Positions 4,725 through 58,975 of a stretch of DNA of 64,000 nt are shown piece by piece. This stretch comes from Bacillota bacterium (GTDB lineage Bacteria > Bacillota_I > Bacilli_A > RF39 > UBA660), in NCBI GenBank assembly GCA_015059495.1, contig SVAI01000001.1:799811-863810 (forward strand). Reading direction: 5' to 3'. A program made the position numbers and the translations under genes. Each line of letters starts with the position of its first letter. Position 1 is the first letter of the stretch. The notes below the pieces were generated by a model that did no database searches, was not told where the DNA came from, and was given only the letters and a program-made list of their open reading frames with translations.

Positions 4725-5162
4725 ATGAAAAAGAACATAATAATTTTATCTATTGGAGCAGCATTTATTGCTCTTGGAGTACTATTCTTTGTACTAGCTA
4801 ATACTAATAAATATCCAAATATTACTACATTAGATATTAATGGATTAAGAGAAAAGATTAATAATAAAGATTCATTTATAATGGTTATAACTCAAGATAG
4901 TTGTACACATTGTCATGCATACCTACCTGTATTAAATAAAGTAGCAGGACAATACAATATAGATGTATATAATATATCTCAAACAGGTTTATCTACAGAT
5001 GATAGTGCTTATTTAAAAAGTATAGCTAATATATCAGGTACACCTACTACTGTATTTATTGAAGATGGTGAAGAAAAATCTACACTAAATAGATTAGTTG
5101 GTAATGTAGCAGAATATAAACTAATAGATAAATTAAAAGGTATGGGATACATCAATGAATAA
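4725..5162 (+). CDS. Membrane-anchored thioredoxin-fold protein
   Basis: A 145-residue protein with one N-terminal membrane segment (about 5-25) and an extracytoplasmic thioredoxin-like domain. The redox motif is CTHC (Cys60, Cys63), followed by the cis-proline segment SGTPTTVFI. Such proteins exchange or reduce disulfides outside the membrane; the partner is unknown. It is the first gene of a three-gene plus-strand operon, and its stop overlaps the start of the CPBP gene. A GGTGATT ribosome site precedes the ATG. Thiol-peroxidase or disulfide-reductase roles are both possible. Confidence 0.85.
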   Translation: MKKNIIILSIGAAFIALGVLFFVLANTNKYPNITTLDINGLREKINNKDSFIMVITQDSCTHCHAYLPVLNKVAGQYNIDVYNISQTGLSTDDSAYLKSIANISGTPTTVFIEDGEEKSTLNRLVGNVAEYKLIDKLKGMGYINE

Positions 5163-5837: not shown

Positions 5838-6680
5838 ATGGAAAAAGAAAAAGAAAAAAAGAAGGAAAAAAGTAAAATGAAAATTATTATTATTGTTATA
5901 TTATTATTAATAGCAATAACTTTTGTATATATGAGATTTATTGCTACATCAGGATTTATTATAAAAGAATTTAATGTAACATCAGAAAAATTACCTAAAG
6001 GTTTTAATGGTGTTAAAGTAATACACTTATCTGATATTCACTATGCATCTGTTGGTGAAGCTAAATTAAATAAAGCAGTTGAAGAAGTAAATACTATGAA
6101 ACCAGATATTATTGTATTTACTGGGGACTTATATGATGAATTTTCTAATCTAACTGAAGATATGGAAAATAAAATAATTAATGCTTTATCTAAACTTAAT
6201 GCTCCACTTGGTAAATATGCAGTATCAGGAAATCATGATTATAAATATGATAGATTTACTGATATTATTACTAAGAGTGGATTTACATATTTAGAAAATG
6301 AAACAAAATTAATATATTATAATGATGAAACACCTATTGAAATAATTGGTTATCCAGATGAAAGAGAAGCTAATCCAAATTATGATATAGAACTAAGTGA
6401 TTATTTTAAAATAGCACTTATTCATGAAGGAGATTCATGGGAACATATTAAAGATAAAGGTATAGATTTATCACTAGCAGGACATTCACATGGTGGACAA
6501 GTAAGATTACCATTTATTGGATGTTTAATTAAAGTTGATGGTGGTAAAAAATACTGTGAAGAACATTACACAAATAATAATTCAGAACTATATGTTAACT
6601 TTGGTTTAGGTGAAACTGAATTTAAATTAAGATCATTTAATAAACCATCAATTAATATGTATAGATTATATACAAAATAA
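5838..6680 (+). CDS. Membrane-anchored metallophosphoesterase (YkuE-like)
   Basis: A 280-residue protein with a very lysine/glutamate-rich start, one membrane helix (about 15-35) and an extracytoplasmic calcineurin-like phosphoesterase domain. Metal-binding motifs appear in order: HLSDIHYA (Asp66, His68), FTGDLYDE, VSGNHDYK, LIHEGD and LAGHSHGGQ. Relatives such as YkuE are binuclear metal phosphodiesterases at the cell envelope. The substrate is not evident. The start follows a GGAG ribosome site 7 bases upstream. It is the last gene of the plus-strand operon, ended by the shared terminator at 6680-6708. Confidence 0.88.
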   Translation: MEKEKEKKKEKSKMKIIIIVILLLIAITFVYMRFIATSGFIIKEFNVTSEKLPKGFNGVKVIHLSDIHYASVGEAKLNKAVEEVNTMKPDIIVFTGDLYDEFSNLTEDMENKIINALSKLNAPLGKYAVSGNHDYKYDRFTDIITKSGFTYLENETKLIYYNDETPIEIIGYPDEREANPNYDIELSDYFKIALIHEGDSWEHIKDKGIDLSLAGHSHGGQVRLPFIGCLIKVDGGKKYCEEHYTNNNSELYVNFGLGETEFKLRSFNKPSINMYRLYTK

Positions 6681-6708
6681 AAAGACGAATATTTATTATT
6701 CGTCTTTT
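6680..6708. terminator. Bidirectional terminator between convergent operons
   Basis: A 12-base perfect stem (AAAAGACGAATA with TATTCGTCTTTT) and a 5-base loop sit between the plus-strand phosphoesterase operon and the minus-strand pilin/TadZ operon. The A and T runs at both ends let it work in both directions. The TadZ-like stop codon lies inside it. Confidence 0.85.
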
Positions 6709-7748
6709 ACTATTCCAAACCATTTAACAGTTTTCTTTTCTAATCCTTCAGGAATTAGTTTATCAAATCCCATTTTATATAGGAATGTTTTAATATCTTT
6801 ATTATCTTCTTGTTTATCATCTAAATAAGGTAAATTAGCAAATGTTTTACAACGTGATTCATATTCAAATTCCTCAACATCTTTATCATTTAATAAACTC
6901 TTATTTAATACTACTTGATAAGATTTCATTTTCTCTAATACTAATCTATCAGTTCTAATCATCTTATTTAATTTTATAGTAGTTGGTTCTACAAGATGAA
7001 TAACTTCTTTAATAGTAGATATTTTAGGAGAATCATTAATATCTACTAAAATAACTTCATAATCACTATTAGGATTCTTAGTAATTGTTTCAAGTTCAGC
7101 AGTAGTAACACTTCTAAGATCACTATCATTAAAGTACATAAAATCCTTTTTATCTACTTCAATAGCTAATACTCTATAATTACCTTCTAAAGCTTTTTTC
7201 ATCATGTATGTTAATGTTGTAGCACCTGCTCCATCAGATAAATTCTTAACAGCAATTACTCTAGTTCCCATAAACATTTTATTAACTGATTCATTAATAA
7301 AATTAGAATTAATTTGTCCTGGATCTAAAGATATATTAGCTTGTGTATCTGCTTTAGCACCAGATGCACCTAAAATATGATATTGTGCTACATCTTTATA
7401 TGTATTTGGATTATTAATTAAATAAGCAACTGCATCTATATTTCTAGTAAAGTTATAAATACCCATAGATATTAACTCTGAAATATATGATGGTGAATTA
7501 ACAATTTGACTATCATCTAATAAAAGAATTACTTTAGACATATCAAGTCCAAAAGATAACTTTTGAATAGTAGCAATATTTTGATAATCTTTAATTGCAG
7601 TAATATCTAGTATCATCTTATTAAAGAAGAAATTTTGAAAATTACTTACAATATCTTCAACATCAAATTCACCTTCTACATTCTTAATAATATCTATTCT
7701 TAAATTAGATAACATTTGGCTATATTTATTAGCAACTATAACATTCAT
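6696..7748 (-). CDS. TadZ/CpaE-like pilus localisation protein (atypical ATPase)
   Basis: A 350-residue soluble protein. The N-terminal part (1-130) looks like an atypical receiver domain, and the rest resembles a ParA/MinD-type domain with VIAVKNLSDGAGATTLTYMM where a Walker A loop belongs and VILVDINDS where a switch motif belongs. This is the architecture of TadZ/CpaE proteins, which place Tad pilus machinery in the cell. The P-loop reads DGAGATTL, so the catalytic lysines are absent and hydrolysis is doubtful. It ends an operon of four pilin-like genes, starting 11 bases after the last of them behind a strong GGAGG site. The rest of a Tad system (secretion ATPase, TadB/C, prepilin peptidase) is not in this window. 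Confidence 0.72.
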   Translation of the reverse strand: MNVIVANKYSQMLSNLRIDIIKNVEGEFDVEDIVSNFQNFFFNKMILDITAIKDYQNIATIQKLSFGLDMSKVILLLDDSQIVNSPSYISELISMGIYNFTRNIDAVAYLINNPNTYKDVAQYHILGASGAKADTQANISLDPGQINSNFINESVNKMFMGTRVIAVKNLSDGAGATTLTYMMKKALEGNYRVLAIEVDKKDFMYFNDSDLRSVTTAELETITKNPNSDYEVILVDINDSPKISTIKEVIHLVEPTTIKLNKMIRTDRLVLEKMKSYQVVLNKSLLNDKDVEEFEYESRCKTFANLPYLDDKQEDNKDIKTFLYKMGFDKLIPEGLEKKTVKWFGIVKDE

Positions 7749-7759
7749 AATCTAACCTC

Positions 7760-8269
7760 CTAATCATGATTCCATCTATTTAATTCTGCTTGATCAAATG
7801 TCGCATCAATTTCTGATGATTGACCATCTACATCAAATGTATATATATCCCCTAGAACTGGTATATCAAATCTAAAGAATAAAGATACTCTATAATATGC
7901 TCTTGTATTAAAATAAGCATGATAATTAGAATATTTTGTAAAACAATAGTAATAATTCTTACCTGGTATTGCCTTTTCAGCACTATTAGATGCAGCTTCT
8001 GGAGATAAATCAAATACTCCATATGTAATTGCATCATTAACTCCTTTACATTTACCCATTGTTCTATATCCACTTGATAATAAATAATTATTAACTAACC
8101 TAATACCATTATCAGTAAATCCTTGACTTTTTTCTACTATACTAATAACTTCATTTTTAATTCTAAAAGATTTAGAATAATTAATTGTTAAAGCTATATA
8201 AGCAGCAAATATTAAGGTAAAAATAATAACAAGTTGAAATACCCAGGTAGCACCTATAGTTTGTCTCAT
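7760..8269 (-). CDS. Pilin-like protein with short leader (TadE/F-like minor pilin)
   Basis: A 169-residue protein starting MRQTIG followed at once by a hydrophobic helix (ATWVFQLVIIFTLIFAAYIAL) and an extracytoplasmic domain of about 135 residues. It contains two cysteines (in GKCKG and YYCF) that match the spacing of the paralog at 8280 and could form a disulfide. The leader is only six residues and ends in Gly, a form shared with the three upstream products. It is probably a minor pilin or pilus-associated pseudopilin. It is fourth of five genes in the operon. Confidence 0.68.
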   Translation of the reverse strand: MRQTIGATWVFQLVIIFTLIFAAYIALTINYSKSFRIKNEVISIVEKSQGFTDNGIRLVNNYLLSSGYRTMGKCKGVNDAITYGVFDLSPEAASNSAEKAIPGKNYYYCFTKYSNYHAYFNTRAYYRVSLFFRFDIPVLGDIYTFDVDGQSSEIDATFDQAELNRWNHD

Positions 8270-8279
8270 ATTTTACCTC

Positions 8280-8747
8280 CTACATTGATACAGGGTAAAA
8301 CAACTTCTTAGTTGAACCCTTTAGACCGAAAGTAAATAGATTTCTAACTACAGGTAAATCAACTGAAAAGAAGACTCTTACTTGATAATAAGCAGCTTTA
8401 GGGAACTGTTCTTTTGTATATTCAGTTTCAGCAGCATATTCTGTAGTCATCTCAGTAATACAGAATAATCCTCTTCCACCTTCAGTTCCTCTACCTTTAA
8501 TACTGTACGCTGTCTCAGACGAAGCACAGTTGCCAGTAGTTCTATATCCAACCCTCGTCATGTACTCTTGAATTTGCTCTAAAGCATCTTCATTAATACC
8601 ATTATTCTTTTGAATAATATTAATAATTTCATTTTTAACCTTATATGATTTATTCATATTTATAGAAAGACACATATAACCAGTGAACAATACAATAAAT
8701 ACGATTACAATCATTGTTAACCAATATGAACCTATCGCATCCTTCAT
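8280..8747 (-). CDS. Pilin-like protein with short leader, paralog of the 7760 gene
   Basis: A 155-residue protein starting MKDAIG, then one hydrophobic helix (YWLTMIVIVFIVLFTGYMCL). Its K/R-x-KNE-I-I-x-I segment after the helix and the G-Y-R-T-x-G-x-C motif near residue 74 are also present in the neighbouring 169-residue protein, so the two are paralogs. A second cysteine lies in GLFCIT. It is likely a minor pilin. By eye this stretch uses more G and C in third positions than the flanking genes. Ten bases separate its stop from the next start. Confidence 0.68.
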   Translation of the reverse strand: MKDAIGSYWLTMIVIVFIVLFTGYMCLSINMNKSYKVKNEIINIIQKNNGINEDALEQIQEYMTRVGYRTTGNCASSETAYSIKGRGTEGGRGLFCITEMTTEYAAETEYTKEQFPKAAYYQVRVFFSVDLPVVRNLFTFGLKGSTKKLFYPVSM

Positions 8748-8753
8748 CGATTA

Positions 8754-9005
8754 TCATCCTTTCCAAGGACAGTAAACTTCCACGTCAGAATCTTTAATCT
8801 TACATTTAACTAATTCTTGCATTTCAGGGCAAGAATTTTCCCCTTCTCTACATGGATTTTCACAGACTGCCCTGCTACAATTACTATTAGCCTTAAAATT
8901 ATCATCCAAACTAGGCCAAATAGCAAAATAGAAAAAAGCCACAAGGATGGCAATAGCTATAACAGCAATTAGTGTTAAATTTAACTCTCCTGTGGTTTCT
9001 TTCAT
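8754..9005 (-). CDS. Small cysteine-rich Flp-like pilin
   Basis: An 83-residue protein with leader MKETTG, a hydrophobic helix (LTLIAVIAIAILVAFFYFAI) and a short outer tail with six cysteines in 43 residues. Size and layout (short leader, one long helix, small tail) match Flp-type major pilins, but the tail is cysteine-rich and probably disulfide-locked. The leader ELN after Gly is nearly identical to that of the next gene upstream, so both are probably cleaved by the same peptidase. The start has a GAGGTAATAAT ribosome site. Confidence 0.7.
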   Translation of the reverse strand: MKETTGELNLTLIAVIAIAILVAFFYFAIWPSLDDNFKANSNCSRAVCENPCREGENSCPEMQELVKCKIKDSDVEVYCPWKG

Positions 9006-9025
9006 ATTATTACCTCACTTACTTA

Positions 9026-9283
9026 CTAAACTCTTCCGCTTTCGTTTCTTGAGTTATCACATGTAATAGTTTGTTCTGAAACAGTTCCGTCATCTTCATA
9101 ATAATGACAAGTTTTAGTTCCGTCTTCATTATCAGTACATTGAATTGCTGAAGAGCAATGTGTTTGTGCTAATAAGTTAGACTTAATACTTGGCCAGATA
9201 ATTGCGTAGAAGAATGCTCCTACTGCAGCAATTGCAACTACAGTTACAACTGTCATATTTAATTCTCCTGTTGCCTCTTTCAT
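9026..9283 (-). CDS. Small Flp-like pilin, first gene of the pilin operon
   Basis: An 85-residue protein with leader MKEATG, a helix (NMTVVTVVAIAAVGAFFYAII) and a 45-residue tail with four cysteines. The first 30 residues closely match the 83-residue neighbour, while the tails differ, as expected for duplicated pilins that have diversified. It has a strong GAGGAG ribosome site and a near-consensus promoter, so it is likely the most strongly made subunit. Homology to known pilins is inferred from layout only. Confidence 0.7.
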   Translation of the reverse strand: MKEATGELNMTVVTVVAIAAVGAFFYAIIWPSIKSNLLAQTHCSSAIQCTDNEDGTKTCHYYEDDGTVSEQTITCDNSRNESGRV

Positions 9284-9316: not shown

Positions 9317-9345
9317 ATTATAACGTGTTTTACATTAAATTTCAA
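9317..9345 (-). promoter_or_regulatory. Promoter of the pilin operon
   Basis: On the minus strand TTGAAA (9340-9345) and TATAAT (9317-9322) are separated by exactly 17 bases, about 34 bases upstream of the first pilin start. This is a strong sigma-A-type promoter. Confidence 0.8.
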
Positions 9346-24949: not shown

Positions 24950-26701
24950 CTATCCTTGACTTATATTAGTAGTACCAAGTAAGAATTGTCTAATTTTTAA
25001 TAGATTAGCACTATTAATATTATCATTACCTGTTACTTTAGCAGCTTCTAAATAAGCACTACCCAATTTATTAGTACCTAATAAATGTTGTCTTAATTTT
25101 AATAAGTCTGCACTATTAATTTGACCATCACCAGATAAATCACCATATATTACAACAGTAAATGTTGTACCATCTTTATATTTAATAGTAGAACCAGTAC
25201 CAATAACACCAGTTGTACTATAAGTTAAATTAGTATCTTTACTTTGAATACTTGAAGCAGTAGTTCCAAGTGCTATACCACTAACATAACTACCGTTAAC
25301 TTTAGCACCAATGTTTTTAACATCACCTACAGGTTCTGGAGCTGGAGTTGGTGTTGGAGTTGGTTCAACTGGATTACTACTAGGAGTATATGTTGCACAT
25401 TGAGTACATAGACCACCACTAGCCCATACAAGACCTGCTCTTAAAGGATTAGATGCAGAAGAATATGCACCAATATTATAATAATTAAATAATCCTTCAT
25501 ACTCTACACCATCATAAGTAAACTTATTACCACTTGTATTAGATGAATTAATTTCTTGTACTGATAATGATGCTAGATAAACTGGATTAACATTAGCAGT
25601 TTTACCAGCTTCTTGATAAATAGATACAAACGATTGATTATCTATTGCATCAAATTCTGCAATCGCAGCATTTCTACTTAATACACTTTTTACTATTTTA
25701 TCTTCTACTTGAATATATGATAAATTTTCAAACATAAATACAAAAGTTTCATTTAACCAATTTCTTGGATCCATATAATATTTAACTGCACCAAGATTTG
25801 GATAATACCAATTCTTTTCATTTGTTGGTACAGGTTTACCATTAGCATCTAATTCAGTTAACTTAGTATTAGTAGAATTAATAGCACCAGTTAATCTAAA
25901 ATTAGTAGCTGCAGTAGTAAAATCTAAATTAGTTTTCATTGCAGTAAATGACCAATTTGGATGTTCATCATGTAATGCTCTTAAATAAGGTTTATATGAA
26001 TCTGGAAAATCTACTAACTTCTTTTCAAATTCAGCATCTTTAACAGTATCTATTCTATCTAAATTAGCATCAGTTGTACCAGTTGCAGGATTATAATTAG
26101 TTTCTCCCATATTTTCAAATACAGGTATAGAAAAATTAAATGGTAAATCCATAGCATTATTTTTATAATAAGCTAAAAATGAAGTATAAGCCTCACTCTT
26201 AGGTGCAGATATATTAGCTTGATATAAATGTGTATAAACAGCATAACTACCACTAGGATTAACATTATACTTCTTTAAATAAGATGTATATTGTCCTTTA
26301 GATATATATCCCTTAGCAATATACATAGCTCCACCTACTATTGCTTTCTTAGGAGTATTCCATGGTCTTAAATATTGATCAGATAAATCTGCTGTATAGA
26401 ATTCTGAACAAAAATATCCTTCTTGACCATCATACTTTATTTTAACCCAACCTGCTGTACAATCATTATTATCTTTATCATATATTTTAGTATCATCTAA
26501 AACATCAATAATATCACCACTATTTAAAGTATCTAATCTAGTTGAATTCTTAGTAGTTGGTTTATCTCTTAAAGCAACTGCATTACCAGTTACTTTAGCT
26601 TTAAAACTTTTAGCACTAGAAAAAGGCATTCTAATAAAGAATGTAGATATCAAAGTTAATATAACAAAAGAAATATTTAAAGACTTCTTAACATACTTCA
26701 T
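24950..26701 (-). CDS. Secreted beta-N-acetylglucosaminidase with SH3 and dockerin domains
   Basis: A 583-residue secreted protein. Order: signal peptide (1-30), bacterial SH3 domain (about 33-105, VTGNAVALRDKPTTKNSTRLD), a spacer, a glucosaminidase-type domain (about 230-425, LRALHDEHPNWSFTAMKTNL and SLSVQEINSSN), a Pro/Thr linker (VEPTPTPTPAPEP), a small domain, and a type I dockerin at 521-583. The dockerin has two Ca-binding repeats (DLSGDGQINSADLLKLRQ and TGNDNINSANLLKIRQ). It should cleave peptidoglycan glycan strands. The dockerin implies attachment to a cohesin-like partner, possibly the next gene. Confidence 0.85.
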   Translation of the reverse strand: MKYVKKSLNISFVILTLISTFFIRMPFSSAKSFKAKVTGNAVALRDKPTTKNSTRLDTLNSGDIIDVLDDTKIYDKDNNDCTAGWVKIKYDGQEGYFCSEFYTADLSDQYLRPWNTPKKAIVGGAMYIAKGYISKGQYTSYLKKYNVNPSGSYAVYTHLYQANISAPKSEAYTSFLAYYKNNAMDLPFNFSIPVFENMGETNYNPATGTTDANLDRIDTVKDAEFEKKLVDFPDSYKPYLRALHDEHPNWSFTAMKTNLDFTTAATNFRLTGAINSTNTKLTELDANGKPVPTNEKNWYYPNLGAVKYYMDPRNWLNETFVFMFENLSYIQVEDKIVKSVLSRNAAIAEFDAIDNQSFVSIYQEAGKTANVNPVYLASLSVQEINSSNTSGNKFTYDGVEYEGLFNYYNIGAYSSASNPLRAGLVWASGGLCTQCATYTPSSNPVEPTPTPTPAPEPVGDVKNIGAKVNGSYVSGIALGTTASSIQSKDTNLTYSTTGVIGTGSTIKYKDGTTFTVVIYGDLSGDGQINSADLLKLRQHLLGTNKLGSAYLEAAKVTGNDNINSANLLKIRQFLLGTTNISQG

Positions 26702-56966: not shown

Positions 56967-58928
56967 CTACTTGTTTACAATTAATTTGATAGTATTTGCT
57001 ATATCTTCTACAGACATCTTATCACTATTAAAACATAAATCATAATTACTCATATCATTTAAATCACTATTAGTATAATATTTATAATATTTATTTCTAT
57101 CTTTATTAACTTTTCTAACTGTCTTTAAAGCATCTTTTTTATTTAATCCAAAGTATTTAATAGCTCTAGCTACTTTACCTTCTTCACTATTATAAATAAA
57201 TACCTTTAATACATTCTTATTATCTTTTAAAGTGTAATTAGCACATCTACCAACAATAACACATGATTCTTTAGCTAACTTCTTAACTACTTTTTGTTCA
57301 CTTAAGAAAATTAAATCATTATTATTATCTTGATAATTTAAAGTTTTCTTTTCATCTTGTGATTCAATATATTCTTTAGTTAAACCGCTCTCTTTAGCAG
57401 TCATAGATATTAACTCTTTATCATAAAAATTAATACCTAGGGAATCTGCTAAAAGTTTACCAACAAATCTACCACCAGAACCATATTCTCTTTGTATAGT
57501 AATAACAATATTCTTGTTATTAACTTTTACTTTATTAACAACTTCTTCTTTTTCTTCTACTCTATCTTTACTTAATATCTTATATTCTGATCTAAATACA
57601 AATATAGCTAAAATAAATGTAATAATATCTGCTATTAAACCTGCATATAAAACACCATAAATACCTTGATTAAATACTATAGATAATATTAGTGATATAG
57701 GAATTAATAAAATAATTTGTCTAGTAAATGCAAGCATAGTAGCTTTAAATACTTTACCTAGTGATTGTAATAGTACAGATGTAGTCATCTCTAATGCATT
57801 AAGTCCACATACTAATATAAAACTATGACACATTAATCTTCCAAATTCCATACATAATTCATATGTAACATCACTCTTCTTAACAAATATACCTAATATT
57901 TGTTCTGGGAATAATACAAATAATATGTTAAATATAATACCAACACTAAAGTTAACAATTAATACTTTCTTTAATACTTCTTGTACTCTTAATTTATTGC
58001 CAGCACCGTAATTAAATCCAATAATTGGTTGAGCTCCAATAGATATACCAATAACAGTACTAATATATAAACTATTTACTTTAGATATGATTCCATATAC
58101 AGATAATGGTATATCAGCACCATATATAGATGAAGCACCAAACTTAGTTAATACATTATTCATAAATACAAATAATATTAATACAGTAGCTTGAGTAATA
58201 AATGATGATAAACCTAAAGATAATACTCTAAATATATTCTTATCTAATTTAAAATCACTTCTACTTAATTTAACACTCTTTAATTTAAATAAATATCTAA
58301 TAGCAATACCACAAGATATTATTTGACCAATAATAGTTGCTAAAGCTCCACCTTTAACACCCATATTAAATCCAAAGATAAATATAGGATCTAATATAAT
58401 ATTAATAATAGCACCAATAACTAACATCATCATTGAATACTTTGGAGCACCATCTGCTCTAATAGTATTAGCAAGTGATGAATAAAAAATCATAAATGGT
58501 GCACCCATAACAATTATTCTTCCATAATCTAATGCATAAGAATATACATTATCAGTACAACCAAATAATCTAACTAATACTGGTAAAAATATATAAGCTA
58601 ATAAACTTAAAACAATAGATGCAACTAAAGTTAAAGTAATAACTTGACCAACACTTTTAGCAGCTTCATTCTTTTTACCTTCACCTAACTTTAGTGAAAA
58701 GTTAGCAGCACCACCAGCACCAATTAAACTAGCAACTGCATTTAAAATAATAACAAGCGGAAACAATACATTAGTAGCAGCATTACCTAAAGTACCAACA
58801 CCTTGACCAATAAATATTTGATCAACAATATTATATACCGAGTTAATTAATGAACTAATAACACATGGAAGTGCAAAAGCGAATAATAACTTAGATATAT
58901 TATCTTTTCCTAAATCTAATTTTTTCAT
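56967..58928 (-). CDS. MATE efflux transporter fused to a cytidylate-kinase-like domain
   Basis: A 653-residue protein. Residues 1-455 are a 12-helix MATE exporter (FALPCVISSLINSVYNIVDQ, GAGGAANFSL, GAQPIIGFNYGAGN). After a charged linker, residues 474-653 are a cytoplasmic P-loop domain of the cytidylate-kinase-like family: ITIQREYGSGGRFVGKLLAD, then VIVGRCANYTL. The kinase-like domain may sense or modify a nucleotide linked to export. ATG 58928 is preferred, with GAAGGAGG 8 bases upstream; longer starts have no site. Confidence 0.9.
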   Translation of the reverse strand: MKKLDLGKDNISKLLFAFALPCVISSLINSVYNIVDQIFIGQGVGTLGNAATNVLFPLVIILNAVASLIGAGGAANFSLKLGEGKKNEAAKSVGQVITLTLVASIVLSLLAYIFLPVLVRLFGCTDNVYSYALDYGRIIVMGAPFMIFYSSLANTIRADGAPKYSMMMLVIGAIINIILDPIFIFGFNMGVKGGALATIIGQIISCGIAIRYLFKLKSVKLSRSDFKLDKNIFRVLSLGLSSFITQATVLILFVFMNNVLTKFGASSIYGADIPLSVYGIISKVNSLYISTVIGISIGAQPIIGFNYGAGNKLRVQEVLKKVLIVNFSVGIIFNILFVLFPEQILGIFVKKSDVTYELCMEFGRLMCHSFILVCGLNALEMTTSVLLQSLGKVFKATMLAFTRQIILLIPISLILSIVFNQGIYGVLYAGLIADIITFILAIFVFRSEYKILSKDRVEEKEEVVNKVKVNNKNIVITIQREYGSGGRFVGKLLADSLGINFYDKELISMTAKESGLTKEYIESQDEKKTLNYQDNNNDLIFLSEQKVVKKLAKESCVIVGRCANYTLKDNKNVLKVFIYNSEEGKVARAIKYFGLNKKDALKTVRKVNKDRNKYYKYYTNSDLNDMSNYDLCFNSDKMSVEDIANTIKLIVNK

Positions 58929-58975
58929 ATAATTTTCCTCCTTCATAAAACAACTTTGTAAGTATAACACAAAAT

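Follow-up and report, generated by a model that had tools for sequence, protein, structure and literature searches.

A split operon for a probable Tad-like pilus with disulfide-bonded subunits in a genome from an order of uncultured gut Bacilli

What do four adjacent genes build whose products open with nearly the same six residues, and are these residues a prepilin leader? The genes lie in a window of 64,000 nucleotides, the whole stretch of DNA that was analysed (bases 799811-863810 of a genome of 1.257 Mb in a single contig). An initial annotation had described four products beginning MKEATG, MKETTG, MKDAIG and MRQTIG, in each of which a single hydrophobic helix comes next; two are 83-85 and two 155-169 residues long. 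All four open reading frames were confirmed on the minus strand, with lengths of 169, 155, 83 and 85 amino acids in the order of their coordinates, and a fifth gene was found next to them.

Five adjacent genes and their products

9317..9345, minus strand: promoter-like site TTGAAA-17-TATAAT upstream of pilin A, 11/12 consensus bases (consensus match only)
9026..9283, minus strand: pilin A, 85 aa; MKEATGELNMTVVTVVAIAA helix, then a Cys-rich tail (4 Cys); likely major subunit
8754..9005, minus strand: pilin B, 83 aa; paralogue of A; 6 Cys; C-terminal PWKG
8280..8747, minus strand: pilin-like C, 155 aa; homologous to D; minor-pilin-like
7760..8269, minus strand: pilin-like D, 169 aa; N-terminal helix of 46 residues, then a second helix and beta-strands (model, pLDDT 89.8)
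6696..7748, minus strand: TadZ/CpaE-like protein, 350 aa; receiver-like domain 1-125, low-confidence linker, ParA-like domain 160-335 (model)
6680..6708, minus strand: hairpin resembling a terminator, with a tail rich in T, at the TadZ stop codon (consensus match only)

The gaps between A and B, B and C, and C and D were 20, 6 and 10 bp, and 11 bp separated D from the TadZ-like gene; the five genes look like a single transcript. We consider it probable, from sequence comparison, that the operon of a diverged Tad-like (type IVc) pilus with disulfide-bonded subunits is split in this genome and that the window holds its subunit genes. Elsewhere in the window, positions 24950-26701 encode a surface protein with an SH3-like start and a duplicated C-terminal dockerin-like motif (GDLSGDGQINSADLLKLRQ), and positions 56967-58970 an apparent MATE-type transporter fusion with a C-terminal cytidylate-kinase-like domain.

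The start M[KR][DEQ]xxG was searched for in the genome and its relatives, as the initial annotation had proposed. Within about 144 kb of the genome itself, 5 of 140 ORFs carried it, namely pilins A-D and one unrelated short membrane protein, and in relatives 304 of the 305 ORFs with this start (from loci centred on the pilin operon) had a hydrophobic helix directly after it. The unrelated protein begins MKEMLGDIL (L010 7844-8065), so the motif by itself is no proof of a prepilin; its conservation at the pilin N-terminus in more than 100 loci shows that it is not due to chance. Pilin B was present in 77 of the 114 non-redundant loci.

C and D were homologous according to hhalign (probability 100, E 2.8e-53). 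The model of D consists of the single long N-terminal helix followed by an alpha/beta part, and as modelled it has the lollipop architecture described for type IV pilins (PMC10191384). A comparison of this model with the PDB gave no match, a result compatible with a pilin fold, and neither the pilins nor the TadB and TadC candidates described below convincingly matched a Pfam or NCBIfam profile. Sequence profiles did not place C and D in TadE/TadF: no convincing Pfam match was obtained, and hhalign to TadE of the same bacterial family gave probabilities of 6-8.

Sequence-family searches with the 350-residue product of the fifth gene returned almost no matches, and its ATP-binding loop (Walker A) was degenerate, reading GAGATT with the usual lysine missing. 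The model aligned over 257 residues with the solved two-domain structure 3fkq, which we take to be a TadZ (Foldseek E 1.7e-5, Z 11.2, rmsd 14); the rmsd presumably reflects a different placement of the two domains. Many single-domain ParA/MinD structures also matched, with Z up to 13.5. The pairing of a receiver-like with a ParA-like domain that is a feature of TadZ in Tad systems was present in the model of positions 6696-7748.

Machinery at a separate locus

In relatives the genes belonged to a longer operon with the order DUF5411 protein, CpaB, TadA, TadB, TadC, A, B, C, D, TadZ, followed by one to three small T4SS_pilin-like proteins and often by a large polytopic protein. In 62 of the 70 scorable relative loci, pilin A lay 0-400 bp (median 74) behind TadC and on its strand. 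No pilus ATPase was found beside the four genes of the window. The machinery of this genome was located at about 72-77 kb in the neighbourhood of ftsZ, about 730 kb from the pilin genes, at a locus (L008) encoding a T4SS_pilin-like protein, a protein of 240 aa, a Cys-rich protein of 1439 aa, DUF5411, two CpaB-like proteins, TadA, TadB and TadC. The last three were about 60-79, 53-69 and 52-71% identical to their operon-adjacent homologues, which identifies them as orthologues of the machinery of relatives. TadABC were also absent beside the pilins in the nearby relatives L041-L043, so the split is common to this group.

TadA had the features of a Tad ATPase: it matched T2SSE, its nearest solved structure was CpaF (E 4.2e-17), and it was operon-adjacent in relatives. 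The CpaB candidate matched TIGR03177 (E 1.2e-7) and PF16976 (E 8.9e-5), both below the curated cut-off. The TadB and TadC candidates were two polytopic proteins at the expected place, with transmembrane segments near both ends. They did not match PF00482; hhalign gave a probability of 48 (E 1.9e-4) against canonical TadB and no match against TadC. The divergent Tad-like pilus of the initial annotation thus gained support from the operon of relatives, in which a TadA/CpaF-type ATPase, two platform-like proteins, a CpaB/RcpC-like protein and TadZ stand together with the pilins. The annotation had advised looking for a TadA ATPase, TadB/C and a prepilin peptidase, and had named the lack of an ATPase or peptidase in the genome as ground against such a pilus. 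Both were present, the counterpart machinery at the distant locus and an A24 peptidase at 602 kb.

In the pilus that we favour, A would serve as the major pilin and B as another small pilin, with C, D and the DUF5411 protein as minor or tip pilins. The pilins would span the membrane with their short charged N-terminus on the cytoplasmic side and their C-terminus, its cysteines all paired, on the outside. TadA together with TadB/TadC would extract them into a thin adhesive filament, TadZ would place the machine, and the tip may hold the large Cys-rich surface protein that the machinery locus encodes.

All evidence for the pilus comes from sequence. The T4SS_pilin-like proteins and the polytopic protein of the operon could instead mean a secretion channel. 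Such a hybrid machine, in which a TadA/VirB11-like ATPase, VirB2-like proteins and the polytopic protein would export proteins and the pilins would form only a short pseudopilus, appears improbable to us. It draws on the T4SS_pilin (PF18895) neighbour at the machinery locus and VirB2-like hits in 73 of the loci scanned, on a polytopic protein of about 730-840 aa adjacent in several relatives (about 8 transmembrane segments in one), on the best NCBIfam score of TadA, which was for VirB11 though below the cut-off, and on the classification of a similar operon as secretion-related (PMC9523054). However, the loci read showed no recognisable coupling protein or VirB4-type ATPase, and the polytopic proteins gave no match to the VirB6/TrbL families.

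Several proteins near the machinery were also observed. Downstream of ftsZ, L008 1747-2109 and 2237-7275 (about 66-72 kb of the genome) encode the T4SS_pilin (PF18895) protein, the 240-aa protein, which is anchored, and the 1439-aa protein, which has 40 Cys, no predicted transmembrane segment and is a possible pilus tip adhesin. Many copies of the repeat MFxxMSNLTNLDVSxFDTSxVT occur at L008 12794-15067 and L010 12082-19041, in likely surface proteins, one of which directly follows TadC.

Cysteine parity and the six-residue start

Beyond residue 34, every pilin had an even number of cysteines: 106/106 A, 77/77 B, 92/92 C and 111/111 D. These 386 of 386 pilins are related by descent and do not represent independent events, and their ectodomain cysteine number, which ranges from 0 to 8, changed many times, never leaving an odd number. 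Cytosolic TadZ, by comparison, had an even count in 33 of 114 proteins and showed no such bias. The simplest reading, strongly supported by these sequences, is that all ectodomain cysteines are paired outside the membrane; a parity kept throughout 386 natural pilin sequences points strongly to complete disulfide pairing. The disulfide-locked subunits proposed in the initial annotation agree with this pattern, and the cysteines that it had seen in common in the two longer proteins correspond to C74 and C109 in D and C74 and C96 in C. A thioredoxin-like CxxC protein was considered as a conserved disulfide partner and rejected, being near the operon in only 4 of 113 loci. Positions 4725-5162 of the window encode a membrane-anchored thioredoxin-like protein with a CTHC motif, about 1.5 kb from the TadZ stop.

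The first residues of the pilins were tabulated from the 114 non-redundant loci. In pilin A, K2 was found in 106/106, E3 in 101/106, A4 in 104/106, T5 in 93/106, G6 in 105/106 and E7 in 105/106 proteins. Gly6 was present in 70/77 B, 88/92 C and 102/111 D, which with A amounts to 91-99% per family, its replacements being Ser, Gln, Asn, Glu, Ala, Val or Ile. The amino acids stayed constant where third codon positions varied, which indicates selection on the protein. In canonical N-methyl prepilins of the same bacterial family (n = 29), the leaders were mostly 5-8 residues long (mode 6) and variable in sequence, and they always ended in Gly followed by F(T/S)L(I/V)E, although this set was found with a motif demanding Gly or Ala plus Glu and those two columns are partly by construction. 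The leader of six residues, noted initially as shorter than in usual prepilins, is therefore normal in this lineage, and its shortness was ruled out as a special trait. The MKEATG-type start is unusual in its composition, its conservation and the absence of Glu at +5, rather than in its length. The Flp motif was not found in the pilins, in which Gly6 is followed by ELNMT or G-T-W, with no Glu at +5 and no Tyr at +6; we therefore do not file them as Flp and call only the machine Tad-like.

Cleavage after Gly6 cannot be assumed, given the missing Glu at +5, the near-invariant putative leader and the occasional Gly6 substitutions. The A24 enzyme, the only one found in this genome, sits with a separate type IV pilus platform, beside PilC at 602 kb, and a PilB-like ATPase lies at 755 kb. 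With this PilC neighbour and 11 canonical N-methyl prepilin matches in the genome, we infer that A24 has other, canonical substrates. A second ParA-TadA-TadB-TadC set at 451 kb (L009 7695-11438, about 450-453 kb of the genome) had no adjacent pilin genes; in relatives this set is accompanied by Flp and TadE proteins of the ordinary kind, whose starts read GQALTEY or GQALVEF.

A24 was found in 132 of 145 genomes, including 75 of the 79 that were TadZ-positive. In the other 13 it was not detected with PF01478, as confirmed with the family's own profile (E up to 10), and several of these keep TadZ. The absence of A24 was dropped as proof of no cleavage, since two such drafts (G018 and G061) retain 8 and 10 N-methyl prepilin matches; G204, a congener of G061, has the enzyme. 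A24 and PilC lie together, so that one assembly gap removes both and their absence is uninformative. The loci L085, L087 and L088 and the drafts G061, G069 and G128 showed canonical Flp/TadE or N-methyl prepilins and no detectable A24 or PilC; either an assembly gap or a different peptidase may account for this.

Within the Tad-like pilus explanation, we favour cleavage slightly over retention of the leader. If A24 cuts after Gly6 in all four pilins, a proposal that we place a little above even, the mature N-termini would be ELN... or GTW.... The frequency of Gly6 and of A24 fits this, as do the leaders of about six residues with terminal Gly in the canonical prepilins of the family. Against it stand the missing Glu at +5 and the near-invariance in A, the position of A24 next to PilC in a genome with canonical substrates, and the start of the DUF5411 partner, mostly M[KR]E[ST][YF]WG (MKESYWG, for example), with aromatic residues ahead of Gly. 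Type IV prepilin leaders are reported to end in Gly or Ala (PMC10191384), whereas some of the pilins carry Ser, Gln, Asn, Glu, Val or Ile at position 6.

The same substitutions would suit a type IV filament assembled without prepilin-peptidase processing, in which the N-terminal M[KR]E is kept and Glu3 takes the role of Glu5. We hold this second possibility only tentatively. It is consistent with the conservation of K2, E3, A4, G6 and E7 in at least 95% of A proteins despite varying third codon positions. Two variants also point this way: at L164 7996-8223, a natural variant of the supposed leader, a pilin A copy has MKFYKINN instead of MKEATG before ELNMTV, and a homologous operon in another Bacilli family encodes a pilin-like protein that starts MGKGVEIFG (L190). 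Nearly all these genomes have A24, however, and those without it are drafts retaining canonical prepilins (G018, G061), so that its absence there carries no information. If true, leaderless assembly would concern a pilus system that is very common in this order of uncultured gut Bacilli. Since the putative leader is conserved in a way that ordinary leaders are not, the system lends itself to a clean test of whether prepilin processing can be dispensed with.

Distribution and comparison with known systems

Of 385 genomes sampled from the order, 317 encoded TadZ, and at least 565 GTDB contig stretches carried it. The system is present in about four of five sampled genomes, and its subunits match no curated family. 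The named relatives of TadZ came from gut MAGs with the labels Bacilli, Tenericutes or Erysipelotrichaceae, among them Candidatus Caccenecus, Ventrenecus and Coprovivens. The operon of the other Bacilli family (G786, L190) is shortened and encodes DUF5411-like, CpaB, TadA, TadB and TadC proteins, the MGKGVEIFG pilin-like protein of 114 aa and a protein of 1173 aa, these identities being assigned by order and by eye except for DUF5411.

The system was initially annotated as not well described. This is fair, but a 2022 study predicted, in gut Clostridia, an operon related to secretion that holds CpaF, PilC/GspF and DUF5411 (PMC9523054), and a 2011 study noted Gram-positive tad-like loci in which no protein had an apparent prepilin signal (PMC3244431). 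The 2022 operon resembles ours in combining a CpaF ATPase, a PilC/GspF-type protein and DUF5411 in a gut-bacterial operon; it belongs to Clostridia genera, and the main text of that report makes no mention of MKExxG pilins, TadZ, cysteine parity or a split operon. The 2011 loci share homologues of tadA, tadC, tadZ and rcpC and the lack of a protein with an apparent prepilin signal, but they are clostridial and include tadV; the likeness is drawn from their published description.

The canonical Tad systems of the same bacterial family (L085, L087, L088) have the same order ParA/TadZ-TadA-TadB-TadC. They differ in their ordinary Flp and TadE starts (NGQALTEY, RGQALVEF), and their TadA is 24-27% identical to that of the pilin operon. 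Like Tad/Flp (type IVc) systems in general, the system described here combines a CpaF-type ATPase, two platform-like proteins, a CpaB/RcpC-like protein and a TadZ with receiver-like and ParA-like domains with small single-helix pilins and larger minor-pilin-like proteins. Unlike them, it lacks the Flp motif (Glu+5, Tyr+6) and a recognisable secretin, no TadV was recognised in the operons that were read, and it is set apart by the near-invariant MKEATGELN start, the Cys-rich pilin tails, the T4SS_pilin-like neighbours and the DUF5411 protein. Our analysis extends the earlier work by the pilins, TadZ, the parity of the cysteines, the signature at the N-terminus and the split. It identifies likely pilins for an operon type that had been predicted only as secretion-related.
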